DNA of 64,000 nt, from assembly GCA_015233895.1 (NCBI GenBank), contig JADFXG010000004.1, positions 104,013 through 168,012 on the forward strand, in the 5' to 3' direction. This DNA is from Nitrospirota bacterium (GTDB taxonomy: Bacteria > Nitrospirota > Thermodesulfovibrionia > Thermodesulfovibrionales > Magnetobacteriaceae). Positions within the stretch are counted from its first letter, which is position 1; each line of letters opens with the position of its first letter. Position numbers and translations under genes: made by a program. Of this stretch, positions 28,894-46,434 are shown in pieces. Below the pieces are notes generated by a model. That model saw only the letters and a list, made by a program, of their open reading frames with translations. It had not been told where the DNA came from and searched no databases.

Positions 28894-30006
28894 CTATAGC
28901 TTCATACAATCCATATTAGCGCAGCCACTTAAACACGGTGAGCAGTCTATGGTTTTTCTAACAATTTCCACATTATGGCCCAGTGGCCGCCACTGGGAGA
29001 TGTCGTTAATGCCTCCACAAAACACTACTGTTTTCACACCCGCGCATCCGGCAATATGGGCACTCAGTGATTCCACCGTAAATATACATTCAGCTTTTTT
29101 GTAAAGGAGATATAATTCCCTTATACTTAACTTTCCCATCAGGTTAACAGCGTCTCTTTGCATGTGCTGTATTATATCCGAAAAGTACGGCAATTCGGAA
29201 TTTGTGCCTGTAAACACTATTTTGTATGCCAACTCTATTTTCTCAATTATACGTGCCCATGACTCCGGTGACAGCATCTTTCTTGTATCCCCCGCACCGG
29301 GATGGATAACCACAAAGGGGCCGCCGATTGTGTTATTAATTATGTTGGTAACTTTTTTTTCATCAGTAGATTCCGTGTAGAGTTCATACTGGAGTTCGCT
29401 CAGTTTGGAGGTAATAGCTGCAGCATTCAGTACCTCAAGGTAGTGTTCCACCTCATGGTGACCCAGTGTCCATTTGGCTTTGTAGTCTAAAAGCTCACCA
29501 AAACCTCCTGTTGAATGCCCTGCTATGTATTTGACACCTCCCAGACGAAGGAGAGTGAGCAAATTACCGCCATAAGCTCTCAGCACAAAAGCTACGTCGT
29601 ATTTTTTTACACGTAATATCATAAGCGCCTTTAAATAATCAAACACATGTTTTATAATTTTTGCCGGAAAATTTTTGCTTTTTCTGTTTAACATAAAATG
29701 ATCGAGCTTTATGATTTTTCTGATAAAGGGATTGCCCTTTAGTATCTCAACCGCCCAACTGCCGCAGAGGACGTCAATTTGGCAGGACGGATAAGTGTGT
29801 TTGATAAGCTGCAGAACTGATGTCATCATTAGGACATCACCGGCATGGTCGGGTTTGACAATGAGGATTTTATTGATGTGTTCCGGTATATTTCTTTTTT
29901 TGAAAAGAGGGGTGGTTAGTAAATCAATTAATTTTAATAATATGATAACCTTTTTGTTTAGGTAGAGGTAACCGTAGTTTAGCGGATTTTTTTTGGTTTT
30001 AGTCAT
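28894..30006 (-). CDS. Family 9 glycosyltransferase (heptosyltransferase-like)
   Basis: 370 residues, GT-B fold. INKILIVKPDHAGDVLMMTS near residues 43-62 and the C-terminal PFVVIHPGAGDTRKMLSPES, then VESLSAHIAGCAGVKTVVFC, are the GT9 acceptor and donor motifs. The tail has cysteines (CSPCLSGCANMDCM) like many LPS heptosyltransferases. It probably adds heptose or a related sugar to LPS core. It converges with the membrane protein gene and its start overlaps the end of the RAYT gene upstream by 8 bases; true start could be further in. Confidence 0.88.
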   Translation of the reverse strand: MTKTKKNPLNYGYLYLNKKVIILLKLIDLLTTPLFKKRNIPEHINKILIVKPDHAGDVLMMTSVLQLIKHTYPSCQIDVLCGSWAVEILKGNPFIRKIIKLDHFMLNRKSKNFPAKIIKHVFDYLKALMILRVKKYDVAFVLRAYGGNLLTLLRLGGVKYIAGHSTGGFGELLDYKAKWTLGHHEVEHYLEVLNAAAITSKLSELQYELYTESTDEKKVTNIINNTIGGPFVVIHPGAGDTRKMLSPESWARIIEKIELAYKIVFTGTNSELPYFSDIIQHMQRDAVNLMGKLSIRELYLLYKKAECIFTVESLSAHIAGCAGVKTVVFCGGINDISQWRPLGHNVEIVRKTIDCSPCLSGCANMDCMKL

Positions 30007-30628
30007 AGGGTTGTAGAGTAAAGGGCGAATAATTATTCGCCCCTACCTGTGCGGGTGGATTAATCTTGCATAATGGGTTATTCCTGTCAGAATCCCAATT
30101 TAATGGATTGCCCTGAATGTATTCCCTGATTTTGTTTAATTCATCCTCATTACGGATGATGTGTTCGTAATAATTGCGTTGCCATAATTTACTGGAATAT
30201 GGCATCCATCCACTTTGTTTTACACCGTCGGAGTATTTTTTTGTCGTCATCGTTTTGAATCGATTCATAATATCCGATAACGTAGGGGCAACCCCCTGTG
30301 GTTGCCCATTCTTTAATTTTTGTCCGTTGATATTATCAGGGCAGGCACAGGGGCCTGCCCCTACAATTTCTATTATTCCATGGAAATGGTTCGGCATAAC
30401 GATATTTTCATGAACACAAAATCCACAATAATGTTGTGGAATACCATTCCATACCATTTGAATCATCTTTCCCGCATCGGTTAAAACAATGTTCCCGTTA
30501 TTAATTTCACCAAACAAACACTCACGGTTTTGTGTGCATAATGTTATAAAATATGCACCTGCCTGAGAATAATCATATCCCTTCAGACGCATTGATTGAC
30601 GATGCTGGATTTCATGGGTGTTTATCAT
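29999..30628 (-). CDS. REP-associated tyrosine transposase (RAYT), copy 1
   Basis: 209 residues of the IS200/Y1-like family. RQSMRLKGYDYSQAGAYFIT opens it, the HUH motif is in VMPNHFHGIIEI near residues 75-86, and the catalytic Tyr is expected in WQRNYYEHIIRNEDEL. RAYTs bind and cut REP palindromes. Here three REP-like palindromes lie inside the gene itself (30023, 30286 and 30339), encoding the inserts VGAGPCACP, GQPQGVAPT and the tail VGANNYSPF. A homologue lies at 30924-31559. Confidence 0.85.
   Translation of the reverse strand: MINTHEIQHRQSMRLKGYDYSQAGAYFITLCTQNRECLFGEINNGNIVLTDAGKMIQMVWNGIPQHYCGFCVHENIVMPNHFHGIIEIVGAGPCACPDNINGQKLKNGQPQGVAPTLSDIMNRFKTMTTKKYSDGVKQSGWMPYSSKLWQRNYYEHIIRNEDELNKIREYIQGNPLNWDSDRNNPLCKINPPAQVGANNYSPFTLQPYD
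30023..30042. repeat. REP palindrome a (inside RAYT 1, 3' end)
   Basis: GGGCGAATAA followed directly by its exact complement TTATTCGCCC, then CTAC. Same family as the others nearby (GTAGGGGC...GCCC). Confidence 0.85.
30286..30307. repeat. REP palindrome b (inside RAYT 1)
   Basis: GGGCAACC and GGTTGCCC arms of 8 bp separated by 6 bases, preceded by GTAG. Confidence 0.85.
30339..30360. repeat. REP palindrome c (inside RAYT 1)
   Basis: GGGCAGGC and GCCTGCCC arms of 8 bp around a 6-base loop, followed by CTAC, that is, in the opposite orientation to b. Confidence 0.85.
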
Positions 30629-30923: not shown

Positions 30924-31559
30924 TTATTCCTTCTCCATGCGGTATTTTATATCGTAATTAATTATGAAATCCAGTTCTTCGTGGATGTCGTTAACATTAC
31001 AGCGTGGATTATCTCTGTCAGAATCCCAATTTAATGGATTGCTTTGAATATATTCCCTGATTATGTTTAATTCATTCTCATTACGGATGATGTGTTCATA
31101 ATAGTTACGTTGCCATACAGGAGTTGTCGATGTTTGGCGCAATTTATTTATGTTTTTGGTTGTGACGGACTTAAAACCTGAAATCAAAGAACCGATTGAT
31201 TTTTGTTTTGGACCACTGTGTTTTCTCGTAGGGGCGACCGGCGGGTCGCCCATTGCATTAATAACCACAATACAATGAAAATGGTTTTGCATTATTACAA
31301 ATTCGTCTAATACTATTTCAGAGCGGAGTTCGGTGGATTTAACCCATTCATCCCGTACTATTATTCCGTATTCGTTCAATATTATTTCTGGGCGAACGCC
31401 GTTCGCCCCTACATGATTTCCGTTCACACTTGCCATTCCACCAAACAAACACTCGCGGTTTTGTGTGCATATTGTTATGAAAAATGCCACCGACTGAGAA
31501 TAATCATATCCCTTCAAACGCATTGATTTACGACTCTGCCCCTCCTTGCTGTATTTCAT
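30924..31559 (-). CDS. REP-associated tyrosine transposase (RAYT), copy 2
   Basis: 211 residues, clearly homologous to copy 1: RKSMRLKGYDYSQSVAFFIT, HUH in IMQNHFHCIVVI, and WQRNYYEHIIRNENELNIIR. It carries two in-frame REP-derived inserts, GNHVGANGVRPE and MGDPPVAPTRKHSG, at other positions than in copy 1. Gene order suggests two separate arrivals or a duplication followed by separate REP gains. Confidence 0.85.
   Translation of the reverse strand: MKYSKEGQSRKSMRLKGYDYSQSVAFFITICTQNRECLFGGMASVNGNHVGANGVRPEIILNEYGIIVRDEWVKSTELRSEIVLDEFVIMQNHFHCIVVINAMGDPPVAPTRKHSGPKQKSIGSLISGFKSVTTKNINKLRQTSTTPVWQRNYYEHIIRNENELNIIREYIQSNPLNWDSDRDNPRCNVNDIHEELDFIINYDIKYRMEKE
31232..31251. repeat. REP palindrome d (inside RAYT 2)
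   Basis: GGGCGACC and GGTCGCCC arms with a 4-base loop, preceded by CGTAGG. Confidence 0.85.
31390..31408. repeat. REP palindrome e (inside RAYT 2)
   Basis: GGGCGAAC and GTTCGCCC arms with a 3-base loop, followed by CCTAC. Confidence 0.85.
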
Positions 31560-36126: not shown

Positions 36127-36375
36127 ATGAGTACTTCAGGGGAAATTGAATCATTTTTTGAGATTGACGAAATAAGGACTGAGTTAACTAAGGGGCCGGA
36201 GTTTTACACTCTTGATGAGATAGCAAAGATGCTGAGGTTGAGTTATATAACCATGTACCGGCTTGTTGAGATAGGCGATATAGCGGCCTCAAAGGTAGCT
36301 GGCAGATGGAGAATAACAAAAAGCGCTTTACAGCATTATCTTGAAAGCCGTCATCCGTTCAATATGGAGGATTAA
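36127..36375 (+). CDS. Excisionase-type (MerR-like HTH_17) DNA-binding protein
   Basis: 82 residues; ATG has AAGGAGG and GAGGTA upstream. YTLDEIAKMLRLSYITMYRL, followed by VEIGDIAASKVAGRWRITKS, is the HTH_17 'excisionase family' signature: winged helix with the R-W-R-I wing. Despite the family name, many members are ordinary regulators. It sits directly before a HAMP membrane protein and GWD on the same strand and may control them. Confidence 0.9.
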   Translation: MSTSGEIESFFEIDEIRTELTKGPEFYTLDEIAKMLRLSYITMYRLVEIGDIAASKVAGRWRITKSALQHYLESRHPFNMED

Positions 36376-36376
36376 C

Positions 36377-37033
36377 ATAAAATTTTATTTTTACTTGACA
36401 TTTGCGTATCTTTCTCTGTTTATGTTACCATTGATTATGGCTGATGGCAATAATTATAAGCGTTCACCGTTAATAGCGAACTTTGGCACTGTGGTTGCTC
36501 TGCTTATCGGAGGAGCTGTGTTTTTATTGGTCATTACATCCATCATTGTGGCTAAATACACCGGTGTGCATGGCGGCGCTGAGGTTACTTTCAGTAACAA
36601 GAGCGTTATAGCGTTTTTTGTCGTTTTTCTGAGTTACGGCTTTGTCGCCATTTTTCTTGTGATGCTTTTTACATACAGGATTTTAAGCCCGTTTAGCAGG
36701 CTTATAAACGAAATCCAGGCAATCCTTGCCGGCGACCTGTCAAAGCGGCTCTGCTTACGGGACAGGGATGTGTACCTCATAAGGAATTTTGTGTCAGATG
36801 TAAATAAGGTGGTTGACAACCTGCAAACTATGCACATTCTTAAGGATGACCTGACAAAACAGATTGACTCTGAAGGGCAGCAAATAATTTCCATGTTAAA
36901 TAATCATCCCGCACTTGATGAGGAAACAAAAAACGCTGTGTTTTTATATCATGAAAAGGTAATTTCTATCGTCAAAGGCACGGAGGAATCTGCTGTAGCT
37001 CCCCCAGACTTAAGCACTAAGTCTGATACTTAG
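36377..37033 (+). CDS. Inner-membrane HAMP-domain protein, probable AUA start
   Basis: About 218 residues. Two hydrophobic pairs (near 3-20, 37-60, and 80-105) and then a HAMP-like stretch, YRILSPFSRLINEIQAILAG DLSKR, followed by helices and a Ser/Pro-rich end; no kinase, cyclase or receptor domain follows. GGAGG at 36366-36370 is followed by six bases and in-frame ATA at 36377, then AAATTTTATTTTTACTTGAC; the only standard starts are TTG 36341, inside the HTH gene and without a ribosome site, and an internal TTG. I choose ATA on ribosome-site evidence. Function unknown; it may sense a signal and act through partner proteins. Confidence 0.65.
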   Translation: MKFYFYLTFAYLSLFMLPLIMADGNNYKRSPLIANFGTVVALLIGGAVFLLVITSIIVAKYTGVHGGAEVTFSNKSVIAFFVVFLSYGFVAIFLVMLFTYRILSPFSRLINEIQAILAGDLSKRLCLRDRDVYLIRNFVSDVNKVVDNLQTMHILKDDLTKQIDSEGQQIISMLNNHPALDEETKNAVFLYHEKVISIVKGTEESAVAPPDLSTKSDT

Positions 37034-37061: not shown

Positions 37062-40000
37062 ATGGGGATTACCTACGAGTTCAGAACTGATAAGGGTGTT
37101 TTATTAACCGCAGGGCCGCCTGATGAACAAGGCACCGGAGACGATTCGTTTATATATATAAAACTGCAGGTTTCATCTCAAAGCAAAAAATCGCCTGTTA
37201 TTTTACCTGATGTTTTACACTGGGGCTTGACAAGGGATGAAAAGGGGAAATGGAATATCCCTGAGGTAGGTTTGTGGCCTGAGGGTTCTCTGAATGTAAC
37301 AGGTTCAGCACTTCAATCCCCTTTTAAAACTCGCCATGATGATGACTGTAGAGTTAATGAACTTCTGTTAAAAGTTAAAAAAGATACTCCCTATAAGATA
37401 ATTGAGTTTGTGCTGTATTTTTCCCAAAATAACTTGTGGGATAATAATGGCGGAAAAAACTTCAAAATCAAAATCAGGGATTTTATTGTAAATAAATCTA
37501 AAGAAAAAGACTCATCATCAGAAGTTCTGCGCCAATATCCAGCATTTCCCACGGAAACCGACGGTTTTACTTTTAATTTGCCGCCCTACGGTACTCTGTA
37601 CGCATCCTTAGATAAGTCGTCATCCCAAACCGTGCTCAGCCTCAGCTCTGACATCCCGCCACCGTTAATCCTTCACTGGGGAGTTTCAGAAAGAGGAGGC
37701 GGCAAATGGCAAATCCCCGCAGAGTATGAAGTCACAGAGGGAAATACTTTCATTAAAAACGGTTCTCTCGAAAATGAATTTATTGAAAGAAACGGACGTT
37801 TTTCTTTAACTATAAAATTTTCCGCCGATACCGCTCCGGTCTGCATTCTGTTTGTTCTTTTCAAACCCGACAAGGGTGTATGGATAAAAAATGGCCGTGA
37901 AGATTTTAAAATACAACTTAAAGAGGTTCAGCCACTCGGTGACACTGACCACACTGAGGTTATAGATGAAATTGTATCTAAAGAAACCGGCCCTCAGTCG
38001 TGGACCCTGATGCACAGATTTAACTTGTGCCATAATTTCAGCGAGAGAATGTCTAACGACAGAAACGGTTTGTACCTTATGTATATATGGCTCAGGTACT
38101 CAGCTCTCAGGCAGCTTGACTGGCAGAGAAACTATAACACGCAGCCGCGGGAGCTTAGCCACGCTCTTGACAGACTATGTCTTAAGCTTGCCTCAATATA
38201 CGCAGACAGTCCGTCAGTCAGACACATAATACCCATGATACTGTCAAACATTGGCCCGGGCGGCGATGGTCAGCGAATACGTGACGAAATTCTCAACATC
38301 ATGCACAGAAACAAATTAAAAGAAGTTAACCACACCTTCATAGAACAATGGCATCAGAAGCTTCACAATAACGCAACAGCCGATGATATTGTCATCTGTA
38401 AGGCTTACATAGAATTTCAGCGGTCAAACGGCAGCCTTGATGTGTTTTACTCTGTGTTAAACTCCATGGGGGTAACCAGAGAGCGCCTCATGGGTTTTGA
38501 ACGTCCCATAAAAAGTGACCCTGAGTTTATACCCCATCTTCGGGATGTCCTGGTAAGGGATTTTGAACACTACCTTAAGATACTTAACTCCGTGCATAAG
38601 GGGGTAGATCTCGAAAGATGCCGTGATTCAGTCTCATACATATTTGGAGACGATGTCATGGGAGCCCTGAGATTTATTGTTGAAAATAAAGACAGCATGG
38701 ATATCACTGTGGTTACAAGACTTTTTACCACAATAAAGTGGATACGTCAGCGTATCAGAGGCATTATCGTTTCAGAACGTGACCTTGGGCGTCTTAAGGA
38801 TTTATTATTCCTGGACCTATCCCTGATGGAGTACCTGCGGGTGTTGACAGAGAGAAACCTTCACGCCAATCTGGGCGGACACACGCTGCTTGAGCTTGTG
38901 GATTTGTCTTTAGAAAACTTACTGCTAACTGATTTGCCTCCCGTTGAAAAGGCAAATTCATCCTATGATATCAGGGCTGAAATACAGAGTTGTATTAATC
39001 ATATAAGAAAAATTAACTCTGTGGAGGGCACCGAATGGGTGCTGAGCTCACTGTCTGTGGTGGAAAGAATAGAGAGATTTGTAGGCTTGTTTGTTGATTT
39101 TTATTATAGTGCATTCCAGGCACGGGCTGAGCATTTAGGTAACAGGTTTAATGCAGCGCCCTGGAGTGTCACCATGTTTACAGAGGAGGTGCTGAGGGGG
39201 CAGTTTCACTTTGTTGTCTCTCTTTTACTAAGATACCTGAACCGGCTGCTAAGGACTGAAGCGGGGCTCAGGAAGTGGCAGGTACTTAGCCCGTTTGAAG
39301 CCTCAGGCATAGTTGAGCTGTACCATACCCTCAAGGAAACAGAAGGTTTTGAGTTTAAGCAGCAAACCGTGATAATAACCGAGAAAGTCTCAGGGGATGA
39401 GGATATTCCAGCCGGAGTGACCGCTGTAATATCAGAGGAGATGGCTGACATAGTTTCTCACGTGTCAGTCAGGGCAAGGAACGAACGAATTCTCTTTGCC
39501 ACCTGTTTTAGCGATGAAATCGTATCCCATTTAAAATCTTTAAAGGGCAAGTACATTTCCCTGTTTATTAATTCTCAGGGAGAAGTCGTTGTAAACGAAC
39601 TGGAAAAACCTACAGATACGGTTGAAACTAAAAAGCAAACTTCAGTTACACCGTTAAAGAGCAAGAAAAGAGCGGCTAAACCATGTGATACTGCCGATGT
39701 AATCAGTGCAGGTGAGTTTACTAAATCGTGTGTCGGCGGAAAGTCTCTAAACCTGATAAAGCTAAAGAGTAAGCTTCCTGGCTGGATAAATCTGCCTGAG
39801 TCGGCTGCTGTCCCGTTTGGTGTTTTTGACAAGGTACTTGTCCATCCTTCAAATGAAAAGGTACATGAAAAGTATAAGCTATTAATAGATGATCTAAATA
39901 ACACCGTAAGTGAAATGCACGCTGAAAAGGTGTCTGCAATCTTATCAAGTCTCCAGTTAACTGTGATGTCTTTAACGCTTCCTGATGATTTTCTGTCATT

Positions 40001-40670
40001 ACTGGCAACAGTGCTTCAGTCATCGGGGCTTCTTGCAGTGAAAAACGGCTCAGATACAGAAACGTTTGCCATCTGCATAAAGCAGGTATGGGCCTCGGTG
40101 TGGAATACCCGTGCGTATTATAACAGAAAGAAAATGCAGCTTGACGGACACATAGACATGGCCGTGCTGATACAGAGAGTTATAGAGGCAGATTATGCTT
40201 TTGTAATCCACACGGTAAACCCGGTGACGAGAGATTCTGAGGAGATGTTTGCCGAGGTAGTTCTCGGCCTTGGGGAGACTATAGTGGGTAACTATCCTGG
40301 CAGGGCATTGAGCTTTACCTGTAAAAAATCCATAGGAGTGCCGGTGGTGTTATCATATCCGGGTAAAAGTGTTGGGCTTTACGGGGGTGGATTAATTTTC
40401 CGGTCTGACTCTAATGCAGAGGATTTGGAAAACTACGCCGGAGCCGGACTCTATGACAGCATCATAACGCCGCAACCCAGATGTGTCCCTCTTGACTATT
40501 CAACAGAGCCGCTTTTTTGGGATGAAAACCTCAGAAACGACACACTTCTTTCCATAGCCGATATAGGAAAAGCTGTTGAAGAGGCCCTTGGCGCCCCACA
40601 GGACATTGAGGGGGTTTACTCAAAGGGCAGATTCTACGTGGTGCAAAGTCGCCCTCAGGTGGGAATTTAG
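37062..40670 (+). CDS. Plant-type alpha-glucan water dikinase (GWD-like)
   Basis: 1202 residues; ATG with GGAGG. Plant GWD transfers the beta-phosphate of ATP to C6 of glucosyl units in starch. Here two N-terminal CBM45-like starch-binding modules are visible by their L-H-W-G motif (VLHWGLTRDEKGKWNIPEVG near 49, ILHWGVSERGGGKWQIPAEY near 204). The central region has IEQWHQKLHNNATADDIVIC near 428, as in plant GWD. The swivelling phosphohistidine domain has DIVSHVSVRARNERILFATC with His800, and the C-terminal ATP-grasp part has AFVIHTVNPVTRDSEEMFAE, GLGETIVGNYPGRALSF, FRSDSNAEDLENYAGAGLYD and YVVQSRPQVGI. All catalytic hallmarks are present. Suggests reversible phosphorylation of storage glucan. 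No glycogen gene is adjacent. Confidence 0.9.
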   Translation: MGITYEFRTDKGVLLTAGPPDEQGTGDDSFIYIKLQVSSQSKKSPVILPDVLHWGLTRDEKGKWNIPEVGLWPEGSLNVTGSALQSPFKTRHDDDCRVNELLLKVKKDTPYKIIEFVLYFSQNNLWDNNGGKNFKIKIRDFIVNKSKEKDSSSEVLRQYPAFPTETDGFTFNLPPYGTLYASLDKSSSQTVLSLSSDIPPPLILHWGVSERGGGKWQIPAEYEVTEGNTFIKNGSLENEFIERNGRFSLTIKFSADTAPVCILFVLFKPDKGVWIKNGREDFKIQLKEVQPLGDTDHTEVIDEIVSKETGPQSWTLMHRFNLCHNFSERMSNDRNGLYLMYIWLRYSALRQLDWQRNYNTQPRELSHALDRLCLKLASIYADSPSVRHIIPMILSNIGPGGDGQRIRDEILNIMHRNKLKEVNHTFIEQWHQKLHNNATADDIVICKAYIEFQRSNGSLDVFYSVLNSMGVTRERLMGFERPIKSDPEFIPHLRDVLVRDFEHYLKILNSVHKGVDLERCRDSVSYIFGDDVMGALRFIVENKDSMDITVVTRLFTTIKWIRQRIRGIIVSERDLGRLKDLLFLDLSLMEYLRVLTERNLHANLGGHTLLELVDLSLENLLLTDLPPVEKANSSYDIRAEIQSCINHIRKINSVEGTEWVLSSLSVVERIERFVGLFVDFYYSAFQARAEHLGNRFNAAPWSVTMFTEEVLRGQFHFVVSLLLRYLNRLLRTEAGLRKWQVLSPFEASGIVELYHTLKETEGFEFKQQTVIITEKVSGDEDIPAGVTAVISEEMADIVSHVSVRARNERILFATCFSDEIVSHLKSLKGKYISLFINSQGEVVVNELEKPTDTVETKKQTSVTPLKSKKRAAKPCDTADVISAGEFTKSCVGGKSLNLIKLKSKLPGWINLPESAAVPFGVFDKVLVHPSNEKVHEKYKLLIDDLNNTVSEMHAEKVSAILSSLQLTVMSLTLPDDFLSLLATVLQSSGLLAVKNGSDTETFAICIKQVWASVWNTRAYYNRKKMQLDGHIDMAVLIQRVIEADYAFVIHTVNPVTRDSEEMFAEVVLGLGETIVGNYPGRALSFTCKKSIGVPVVLSYPGKSVGLYGGGLIFRSDSNAEDLENYAGAGLYDSIITPQPRCVPLDYSTEPLFWDENLRNDTLLSIADIGKAVEEALGAPQDIEGVYSKGRFYVVQSRPQVGI

Positions 40671-40846: not shown

Positions 40847-42475
40847 ATGGCAACAAGTGTTGAGAGCAAATGGAAAAAAGGCGACGAAATTATAAGGCGT
40901 TATGAGGTCATTGACATTAAAGCCGGCGGCATGGGGATTGTCTATATTTGCTATGACCGCAGATTTAAGAAAAAGGTTGCCCTAAAAACCCTTCAACAAC
41001 AGTATCTAAACAGCAAAACTCTCAGTGCCCGGTTTATGTGGGAGGCTGAGACGTGGGTGCGGCTTGAAAAGCATCAAAATATAGTACAGGCAGAGTATGT
41101 TACTAAAATAGAGGATTTGCCGTTTATCTGCCTTGAGTACATAGAGGGGAGCGAAAAGTACGGGGCTGAACTAAAGGGCTGGATAAGAAAAGGCGGTATA
41201 GATTTGCCCGGCAGCATCAACTTTGCCCTGCAGTTTTGTAACGGCATGGTGCATGCCTCCGTTAAGTTTAAAGAGATGAGGCGACCGTTTATTTACAGGG
41301 ATGTAAAACCCGCCAACATTATGGTTACAGCAGATAAAACGGTAAAGATAACAGATTTCGGCCTTGTAAAGCTTGCATTGGAGCCTGAGGCTAAAGCAGA
41401 CAAAAAACGCACAAATAATGACGAGCCGGAGGATTTTGCTATGACTCAAACCGGTACAATTGTTGGCACTCCTTACTACATGTCACCAGAGCAGTGGCTA
41501 AATAAGGAGTTGGATGAAAGAGCTGACATTTATGCGTTTGGCTGCGTTTTTTATGAAATGATTACAGGCGCCCCCCCATTTTCAGCAAAAAACCTGGATG
41601 ACATAAAAGAACTCCACCTAAGAGCAACCCCAAAGCCTATCCCTGATTTACCAGGCAAACTTACAGCTCTGATAGGCACCTGTCTTAAGAAAGACAGAGA
41701 AAAAAGATATAGCAGTTTCAACGTTATACGGGACGAACTCAACGACATGTATCATTCCTTTACCGGTTCAAGGGTGTATCAGGATGACAACTCAGACACC
41801 ATGAAATCATGGGAGCTTATTAATAAAGGCATATCGCTGTTTAATCTTAAATACTATAATGAAGCTCTTGAGTGTTTTAATGCGGCGTTGAGACTTAAAG
41901 CCTCAAATCCGGATGCTTACAGAAGCCGCGGTAGCACATTCCACGCACTAGGGCGGTATGATGAGGCGATAAGCGATTTTAAGGATTCAATACGATTAAA
42001 CCCAAAATCTGCCGAGACGTATTACAATCGTGGTGTTACCTTTTTTGCCGCAGGCCGAAGCGAAAAAGCTGTGGATGACTACACAAAAGCAATAGAGCTT
42101 GATGAAAACTATGCTGAGGCTTACTTTAACCGTGGTGTTGTTTTAAGAAAACTTGGCAAGTTAGACGAGGCCATAGAGGACTACGGACAGGCCATACGTG
42201 TAAAACCAGACTATGTTAAGGCCTACCAAAGCCGTGGAAATGCGCACTTTGCCACGGGTAACTACGAGGCGGCTGCGGCAGATTATAAAAAAGCTTATAA
42301 ATTAAACAGAACTTCACTGGATGCCCTCTTCAATCTTGCCCTTACCTGTGAGTATCTTGAGAAAACTGAGAATGCTTTGCTGTATTGGAAACTTTTTCTG
42401 TCTGAGACAAAAAACTCCCCACAGCATAGTGCTAAGGCAGACACTGCCAGGGCTCACATCAAATCTCTCTCATGA
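40847..42475 (+). CDS. Ser/Thr protein kinase with C-terminal TPR repeats
   Basis: 542 residues. Hanks-type kinase: glycine loop AGGMGIVYICYDRRFKKKVA near residues 24-43 with the catalytic Lys in VALKTL, Glu in the C-helix region, HRD-equivalent YRDVKPANIMV near 150, DFG in ITDFGLV near 171, and the activation segment GTIVGTPYYMSPEQW. Kinase ends near 300; residues 320-535 hold six TPRs (YYNEALECFNAALRLKASNP and so on). There is no membrane segment, so it is cytoplasmic. An FHA protein that could read its phosphothreonines lies at 62622. It is preceded by 176 bp of non-coding DNA. Confidence 0.95.
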   Translation: MATSVESKWKKGDEIIRRYEVIDIKAGGMGIVYICYDRRFKKKVALKTLQQQYLNSKTLSARFMWEAETWVRLEKHQNIVQAEYVTKIEDLPFICLEYIEGSEKYGAELKGWIRKGGIDLPGSINFALQFCNGMVHASVKFKEMRRPFIYRDVKPANIMVTADKTVKITDFGLVKLALEPEAKADKKRTNNDEPEDFAMTQTGTIVGTPYYMSPEQWLNKELDERADIYAFGCVFYEMITGAPPFSAKNLDDIKELHLRATPKPIPDLPGKLTALIGTCLKKDREKRYSSFNVIRDELNDMYHSFTGSRVYQDDNSDTMKSWELINKGISLFNLKYYNEALECFNAALRLKASNPDAYRSRGSTFHALGRYDEAISDFKDSIRLNPKSAETYYNRGVTFFAAGRSEKAVDDYTKAIELDENYAEAYFNRGVVLRKLGKLDEAIEDYGQAIRVKPDYVKAYQSRGNAHFATGNYEAAAADYKKAYKLNRTSLDALFNLALTCEYLEKTENALLYWKLFLSETKNSPQHSAKADTARAHIKSLS

Positions 42476-45495: not shown

Positions 45496-45897
45496 TCAGG
45501 CTGCGGTTTTGATCTCTATTTTCCTTGTCTTTACTTCATCCACCTTTGGAAGCACGAGGTTTAGCACTCCGTTTTGAAGCTTTGCCTCTATCTTGTCTTT
45601 CTGTATCTGGTCAGATAGAGTGAAGCTCCTTTCATAGTCGCCCACTTTATACTCGGCGTATGAGAGTTTATAGCCCTCTGGTGCCATTTCCCCAACTGTC
45701 CCGTATATGGTCAGCACATTGTCAAGAAGTGTTACCTCAACCGTGCTCTCATCCACTCCAGGCATATCCGCTGTAAGCACTATATCCCCATCCTTTTCCA
45801 CAATATCCACAGCCGGTGTATAAACTTTAGCTGCCCTTGTCCTTTCAGGTTTCTCTGTTGCTTCTGATTCTTTCATTACTTGTGTTATATCTGACAT
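45496..45897 (-). CDS. Small heat-shock protein Hsp20, copy 2
   Basis: 133 residues with an alpha-crystallin domain: VYTPAVDIVEKDGDIVLTAD, MPGVDESTVEVTLLDNVLTI and the C-terminal NGVLNLVLPKVDEVKTRKIE (GVLxLxLPK signature). A short C-terminal tail IEIKTAA contains an I-x-I-like motif. ATP-independent holdase that binds unfolding proteins. It begins 27 bases after the end of the other Hsp20 gene, one operon. Confidence 0.95.
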   Translation of the reverse strand: MSDITQVMKESEATEKPERTRAAKVYTPAVDIVEKDGDIVLTADMPGVDESTVEVTLLDNVLTIYGTVGEMAPEGYKLSYAEYKVGDYERSFTLSDQIQKDKIEAKLQNGVLNLVLPKVDEVKTRKIEIKTAA

Positions 45898-45924
45898 AGT
45901 TGTAAACCTCCTTTCCTTATAAAA

Positions 45925-46434
45925 TTATTGGCTTTTGATTTCGATTTTTCTTGGTTTTTCAGCCTCTGCCATAGGTAGTGTCACACTAAGAGTGCCCTTT
46001 GAAAAATTGGCATCAACCTTATTAGCATCAATGTCAAAAGGCAGCGACAGAGTTCTTACAAAATTACCCGTCCAGCGTTCGGCTCTGTGATACGACTGTT
46101 GTTCCTCAAGTGTCTCAGCTTTGCGTGAGCCTTTTAGCGTCAAAGTCTTGCCTGTCACAGATATTTCCATGTCCTCAGGTGTGACGCCTGGTATTTGGCA
46201 TGTCAGATATGCCCCATCCTCTTTTGTCCACACGTTTACTGCCGGAATTTGCCCAGAATACGGCTTGTCAACGTTTGTAAAAGCCTTGTTAATTTCCTTT
46301 TGTGCCTCACTCATCCTCTCTGCTATCTGATTTTGTATTTTACTCATACTGTCCTCTAAGTTGCCAAAGCCTCCCCATGGATCTAACCCAAATCCAAATA
46401 AATCTCTTCCTGTTAAACGTCGTCCAAACATCAT
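45925..46434 (-). CDS. Small heat-shock protein Hsp20, copy 1
   Basis: 169 residues; N-terminal arm MMFGRRLTGRDLFGFGLDPW rich in Phe and Gly, then the alpha-crystallin domain (IPAVNVWTKEDGAYLTCQIP, TPEDMEISVTGKTLTLKGSR, FSKGTLSVTLPMAEAEKPRK) and IEIKSQ. ATG 46434 has AGGAGG upstream. The long upstream region with TGGCCT palindromes is a candidate control region. Confidence 0.95.
   Translation of the reverse strand: MMFGRRLTGRDLFGFGLDPWGGFGNLEDSMSKIQNQIAERMSEAQKEINKAFTNVDKPYSGQIPAVNVWTKEDGAYLTCQIPGVTPEDMEISVTGKTLTLKGSRKAETLEEQQSYHRAERWTGNFVRTLSLPFDIDANKVDANFSKGTLSVTLPMAEAEKPRKIEIKSQ

Follow-up and report, generated by a model that had tools for sequence, protein, structure and literature searches.

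A full-length plant-type alpha-glucan, water dikinase in Nitrospirota and its association with a predicted TIM barrel glucan phosphatase

Introduction

Plants both add phosphate to their stored glucan and remove it. It is added by alpha-glucan, water dikinase (GWD; the plant enzyme is GWD1, EC 2.7.9.4) and by phosphoglucan, water dikinase (PWD), directed to C6 and C3 respectively, and is removed by dual-specificity phosphatases such as SEX4 and LSF2. Here we describe a gwd gene in a stretch of 64,000 nucleotides, hereafter the window, from the genome of a bacterium of the phylum Nitrospirota (assembly GCA_015233895.1, contig JADFXG010000004.1, positions 104,013 to 168,012, forward strand), along with a TIM barrel family that accompanies GWD across that phylum and is predicted to act as the corresponding phosphatase. 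The comparison suggests that GWD-bearing Nitrospirota likely phosphorylate and dephosphorylate the sugar polymer that they themselves store, in a manner similar to plants.

Neither GWD itself nor its presence in some bacteria is new; what is new here is its association with the TIM barrel. A 2018 paper states that GWD had so far been found only in starch accumulators and had been proposed to originate with the primary plastid; its tree already includes some bacterial GWDs, for which lateral transfer is suggested (PMC6260743). A 2025 paper calls it 'interesting to speculate' whether the glycogen of organisms without laforin, bacteria included, is phosphorylated (PMC13011383), while the first 300,000 of the 445,374 characters of a 2024 review of prokaryotic alpha-glucan enzymes contain none of the terms 'dikinase', 'GWD' or 'glucan phosphatase' (PMC11046441). 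In the open-licence literature we found neither the bacterial GWD-PWD-TIM module nor the TIM-PWD fusion described, and no bacterial protein put forward as a glucan phosphatase. The enzymatic phosphorylation of bacterial glycogen and the plastid-linked origin of GWD both become directly testable with a wide bacterial GWD family that has a linked PWD, a second glycogen synthase (GlgA) and a candidate phosphatase, and the last of these would represent a glucan phosphatase of a new kind.

Results and discussion

Domain architecture of the bacterial GWD

The gwd gene (37062-40670, plus strand, as are its two upstream neighbours described below) is an intact open reading frame (ORF) for 1202 amino acids, running from ATG to stop without internal stops. 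To judge by its domains, its key residues and its place in the tree, the product is a full-length plant-type GWD, with the order CBM45-CBM45-AIR-phosphohistidine-ATP that characterises plant GWD1. The name CBM45 is absent from Pfam, and the two modules were recognised as two stretches matching PF23166, the GWD1 Ig-like N-terminal domain (E 2.2e-39), which we equated with CBM45 through the aligned aromatic residues of the potato enzyme. Five aromatics are named for each potato module (PMC7569903), and all ten are kept in the window protein: W54, W64, F116, W126 and F134 in the first module (approximately residues 1-138; 37062-37475) and W206, W216, F264, W274 and F282, positions taken from the alignment, in the second (residues 182-286, the best PF23166 stretch; 37605-37919).

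The central AIR domain (residues 291-733; 37932-39260) matches the plant GWD structures 9ha9 (E 3.2e-65) and 9qvi (E 7e-65) and contains the motif QWHQKLHNN (residues 429-437; 38346-38372), which agrees with potato at every residue from W430 to N437; at the position of Q429 potato has Glu. It is followed by the GWD1 phosphohistidine domain (PF22973, residues 738-848, E 9.5e-35; 39273-39605), within which the predicted catalytic His800 (39459-39461) lies in the sequence HVSVRARN. In an alignment of the window protein with eight other bacterial and five plant GWDs, His800 corresponds to His1069 of the potato precursor, and the residue is the same in all 14 rows. The ATP-binding domain (residues 875-1202; 39684-40667) matches PPDK_N (PF01326, E 8e-26) in three stretches and carries the motifs GLGE (residues 1069-1072; 40266-40277) and RSDxxxEDL (residues 1114-1122; 40401-40427) in the same order as plant GWD1. 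The initial annotation, made from the letters and a list of ORFs, had named the two CBM45-like modules, the central motif, the histidine and a complete C-terminal ATP-binding half, and had called the whole a full-length plant-type GWD; each of these observations was borne out.

Unlike plant GWD1, the window protein has neither a transit peptide nor a long segment between the CBM45 modules, and Leu811 stands where the redox motif CFATC of plants has its first Cys. Leu occupies this position in all nine bacterial rows of the alignment, where the motif reads LFATC or LFAIC, so that the plant-type disulfide cannot form in the bacterial enzymes. We regard that disulfide as serving regulation in the plastid forms of plants and not as defining the family; exceptions to CFATC are reported among plants and algae as well (PMC7569903).

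Phyletic distribution and relationship to plant GWD

A search with the window GWD against 5.8 billion proteins, in which 7991 candidates were scored, gave 1498 proteins at E<=1e-3. Among the best 120 of these, the minority that carry an organism name are bacterial or metagenomic, the groups represented being Nitrospirota, deltaproteobacterial groups and Planctomycetota (Scalindua). To judge by its nearest named relatives (see below), the host is probably a close relative of Magnetomonas. In a census of 295 genomes sampled from the phylum, including the one that contains the window, GWD was found in 22, spread over nine families; all nine sampled genomes of the window's own family have it, and other families are mixed. 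The gwd of the window is thus no isolated plant gene.

A tree of the AIR and phosphohistidine regions was built with 70 rows, of which 32 came from the database search (query included), 14 were plant GWDs and 24 were PWD-like. It separates the 46 plant and bacterial GWD rows from the 24 PWD rows with an SH-aLRT value of 100, as obtained with a quick method, on a set without algae or plant PWD, by a program that warned that two long branches meet. The order of motifs in the ATP-binding domain agrees with the tree in setting GWD apart from PWD. RS(D)xxED lies after GLGE in 117 of 121 GWDs from the database search (query included) and in 117 of 120 plant GWDs, and before GLGE in 82 of 120 PWD-like proteins; the remaining four, three and 38 sequences, respectively, lack a motif. 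The relocated motif could mark the GWD family. The tree does not settle the order of branching between the plant and the bacterial GWDs, and for this reason an ancient transfer between plants and bacteria, in either direction, may have taken place.

Alpha-glucan metabolism in the same genome

Although the neighbours of gwd in the window are not glycogen genes, as the initial annotation had observed, this holds only locally: a storage alpha-glucan pathway is present elsewhere in the genome, and in some relatives gwd lies beside alpha-glucan genes. In the assembly (3.71 Mb, 65 contigs), matches above NCBIfam cut-offs comprise three GlgA together with GlgB, GlgP, two GlgX, MalQ, maltokinase, TreZ and a glgA_Coryne-type glycosyltransferase. 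Pfam adds GlgE and a GH57 branching enzyme, for which the NCBIfam branching-enzyme models match below cut-off. One of the GlgA genes, on contig C2, is the counterpart (70-71% identical) of the GlgA found near the TIM barrel gene in the genomes G188 and G291 (see below). About 4 kb past it, the opposite strand carries a third GlgA (53-56% identical) along with a DUF4912 gene and the GH57 branching enzyme. PWD was not found in this genome, where all other PPDK_N proteins are of PEP synthase or pyruvate, phosphate dikinase (PPDK) type.

A phosphatase of SEX4 type had been sought by the initial annotation, but the DSPc domain (PF00782) has no match in this genome; across the 22 GWD-bearing genomes it is found above cut-off in four and below cut-off in four more. 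The TIM barrel described next is the candidate instead.

A TIM barrel linked to GWD

We examined 24 GWD loci: that of the window, the locus L009, and 22 from 21 other census genomes. In nine of the 24, gwd is immediately followed on its own strand, at a distance of -44 to +84 bp, by a gene for a TIM barrel resembling xylose isomerase (family PF01261); in the other 15, the window included, the next gene is not of this kind. The TIM barrel may stand alone or be fused to a PWD-like dikinase. Of the nine linked loci, five have an uncut TIM-PWD fusion (L060, L063, L070, L071, L072), L066 has the fusion as far as the contig reaches, L061 and L062 have the stand-alone form, and in L064 the gene is interrupted by the contig end; Pfam domains were determined for L060, L071 and L062. 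A GH13/hDGE-type amylase gene follows the TIM gene in several loci and follows gwd directly in L068 and L069. The TIM gene of both G188 and G291 is accompanied by genes for a GH13/hDGE-type amylase, GlgA, a DUF4912-like protein and a GH57 branching enzyme, families that were assigned partly by homology.

Like PWD, the partner dikinase of the relatives has phosphohistidine and ATP-binding domains and aligns with GWD centrally, and one sequence source gives many of its matches, TIM fusions included, the name phosphoglucan, water dikinase. Plant PWD carries a CBM20 module at its N-terminus, whereas 83 of the best 120 PWD-like database matches have a TIM domain, N-terminal in position, the comparison here being with the known plant architecture.

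The association extends beyond adjacent genes. Within the same 295 genomes, the TIM barrel (profile match at E<=1e-25) is present in 20 of the 22 with GWD (absent from G118 and G144) and in none of the 273 without. A second type of GlgA (E<=1e-130) is present in 17 of the 22 (absent from G118, G132, G144, G239 and G253) and in four of the 273 (G200, G222, G246 and G290). Fisher tests give 4e-29 for the TIM barrel and 9e-20 for the second GlgA, values that overstate the evidence because the sampled genomes are related. At least two GlgA-type matches were found in 14 of 22 genomes with GWD against five of 273 without, while any GlgA-type match is present in 22 of 22 against 230 of 273. PWD was found in eight of the 22, with no GWD-negative genome among the matches listed. 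The genome of the window encodes GWD, the TIM barrel and the second-type GlgA, the TIM barrel being located away from gwd.

The genome G144 has two GWDs (L069, 7840-11130; L075, 577-3621) and no TIM barrel; one of its two gwd genes adjoins a GH13/hDGE-like amylase gene.

The TIM barrel as a predicted phosphatase

The function of the TIM barrel was approached by alignment with Escherichia coli Nfo (endonuclease IV). Residues H74, H108, E139, D172, H175, H205, D212, H214 and E248 of the TIM barrel align with H69, H109, E145, D179, H182, H216, D229, H231 and E261 of Nfo, which we take to be the metal ligands of endonuclease IV. All nine positions are invariant in 11 of 11 stand-alone proteins and in 45 of 45 fused ones, the latter a set of our own choosing. 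On these grounds the TIM barrel is predicted to be a three-metal glucan phosphatase. In its proposed role, removal of the phosphate added by GWD or PWD, it would resemble SEX4 and LSF2; its fold is unrelated to theirs and its predicted chemistry employs three metals, not a Cys nucleophile.

Endonuclease IV shares with it the TIM barrel and the same set of metal ligands, as part of the AP endonuclease 2 superfamily to which CbiR also belongs (PMC7733943). Unlike the case of these two proteins, the genomic link of our TIM barrel is with alpha-glucan genes, and overall similarity to them is low: the hhalign probability against endonuclease IV is 51%, and CbiR matches the stand-alone form tested only below the NCBIfam cut-off. 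In fold comparison the highest score is that of the uncharacterised 3wqo (22.6), followed by a viral AP endonuclease (21.9), epimerases (at most 21.4) and E. coli endonuclease IV (19.8).

Proposed function

We propose that GWD phosphorylates the bacterium's own storage alpha-glucan, likely in a cycle of phosphorylation and dephosphorylation with the TIM barrel as the predicted phosphatase, and put the probability of this at roughly four in five. GWD would bind the glucan through its pair of CBM45 modules. In the ATP-binding domain His800, whose counterpart in potato GWD is essential (PMC12892837), would accept the beta-phosphate of ATP and would then transfer it to glucose units in the glucan, probably at the AIR region. 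The substrate would be an intracellular alpha-glucan, phosphorylated, by analogy with plants, at C6. The phosphate may loosen or open the polymer to attack by GlgX, GlgP and amylases; these enzymes could continue once the TIM barrel had hydrolysed the phosphate monoester. In relatives that have PWD, a second dikinase, directed to C3 by analogy, would add further phosphate and carry its own phosphatase.

A broader proposal is more tentative and, taken whole, somewhat less likely than not: several bacterial phyla may possess complete reversible phosphorylation of their storage glucan, with the two dikinases that plants use for starch (GWD and PWD) and a phosphatase of independent origin, the endonuclease IV-type three-metal TIM barrel. 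Where the barrel is fused to PWD, as it often is, a single protein would both attach and release the phosphate. Together with the second, dedicated GlgA this would make a bacterial starch-like glucan, and the system would be a counterpart, perhaps even the source, of starch phosphorylation in plants.

Alternative explanations

The proposal is most exposed at the TIM barrel, which might instead isomerise or epimerise sugars or sugar phosphates, its substrates being glucose phosphates freed from the phosphorylated glucan. The argument from nine ligands is weakened by the fact that 3wqo, itself uncharacterised, aligns with much the same residues. Nevertheless, the nine three-metal ligand positions are present and identical in every protein aligned, they exceed the four ligands of one-metal epimerases, and the sole NCBIfam match of the stand-alone form tested is to a phosphodiesterase, though below cut-off; an isomerase or epimerase therefore seems doubtful, if still worth serious consideration. 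The substrate of GWD might also be questioned, since an alpha-glucan or maltodextrin made by other organisms and then imported, in place of the cell's own store, would sit well with a window neighbourhood free of glycogen genes, with a HAMP-like membrane protein kept upstream of gwd in six of 24 loci (see below) and with CBM45 aromatics that plants are reported to use in binding starch (PMC7569903). Yet the N-terminus of GWD has no evident signal peptide, as judged by eye, its expected need for ATP implies a cytosolic site, and the linked genes serve synthesis (GlgA, branching enzymes) no less than breakdown, so that we think import improbable.

Two further possibilities concern the gene itself. 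Its plant-like domain order, the lateral transfer that the 2018 paper suggests for some bacterial GWDs (PMC6260743) and a GC content of 0.44, slightly above the 0.405 of the window, might hint at a gene acquired recently from a plant or alga and lacking any role proper to the bacterium. Such an origin is very improbable given that identity to potato GWD is 36% overall (413/1141 aligned), or 40% (342/853) when counted from the AIR domain onward, against 96, 87 and 78% to the nearest named relatives among the matches listed (a Nitrospirae MAG, Candidatus Magnetomonas plexicatena and Nitrospirae bacterium YQR-1, respectively), that gwd is under strong purifying selection (dN/dS 0.09-0.10 against three relatives), and that GWD-bearing genomes occur in nine families, with linked genes. 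Barely credible, finally, is a diverged PEP synthase or PPDK. The PPDK_N ATP domain is common to these enzymes, and NCBIfam returns weak matches, mostly to PEP synthases and all far below cut-off, but the window protein has CBM45-type modules, AIR and the GWD-specific phosphohistidine domain and groups with plant GWD. It has no Pfam match to the PEP-utiliser domains PF00391 and PF02896, while the genome's four other PPDK_N proteins, of PEP synthase/PPDK make-up, all have PF00391. Neither placement within PEP synthases nor a lack of CBM45 matches, the outcomes named in the initial annotation as telling against a GWD, was found.

Neighbouring genes

Two genes precede gwd in the window. A small HTH_17 DNA-binding protein (36127-36375; PF12728, E 5.3e-14) is encoded by the first gene of a putative operon and is present in three of the 24 GWD loci (window, L009 and L054), its tie to gwd being positional only. 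The second gene (36341-37033, start provisional), 28 bp from gwd, encodes a HAMP-like membrane protein whose HAMP match is below the Pfam cut-off. This gene or a homologue occupies the position directly upstream of gwd in six of the 24 loci, namely those of the window, of L009 and of genomes in the genera g1 and g2; it is likely co-transcribed with gwd, and its product may tether or regulate GWD. Downstream, 176 bp beyond gwd, is a gene for a Ser/Thr protein kinase with TPR repeats (40847-42475), present in this position in two of the 24 loci (window and L009).

Three GWD-bearing genomes have, close to one another, genes for the second-type GlgA, a DUF4912-like protein and a GH57 branching enzyme (L079, 6109-15693; L099, 1830-5744; L103, 5812-9777). 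DUF4912 may belong to alpha-glucan metabolism.

Elsewhere in the window are two neighbouring, similar ORFs (29999-30628 and 30924-31559) that resemble REP-associated tyrosine transposases in their motif, and two adjacent ORFs (45496-46434) whose products resemble small heat-shock (Hsp20) proteins.

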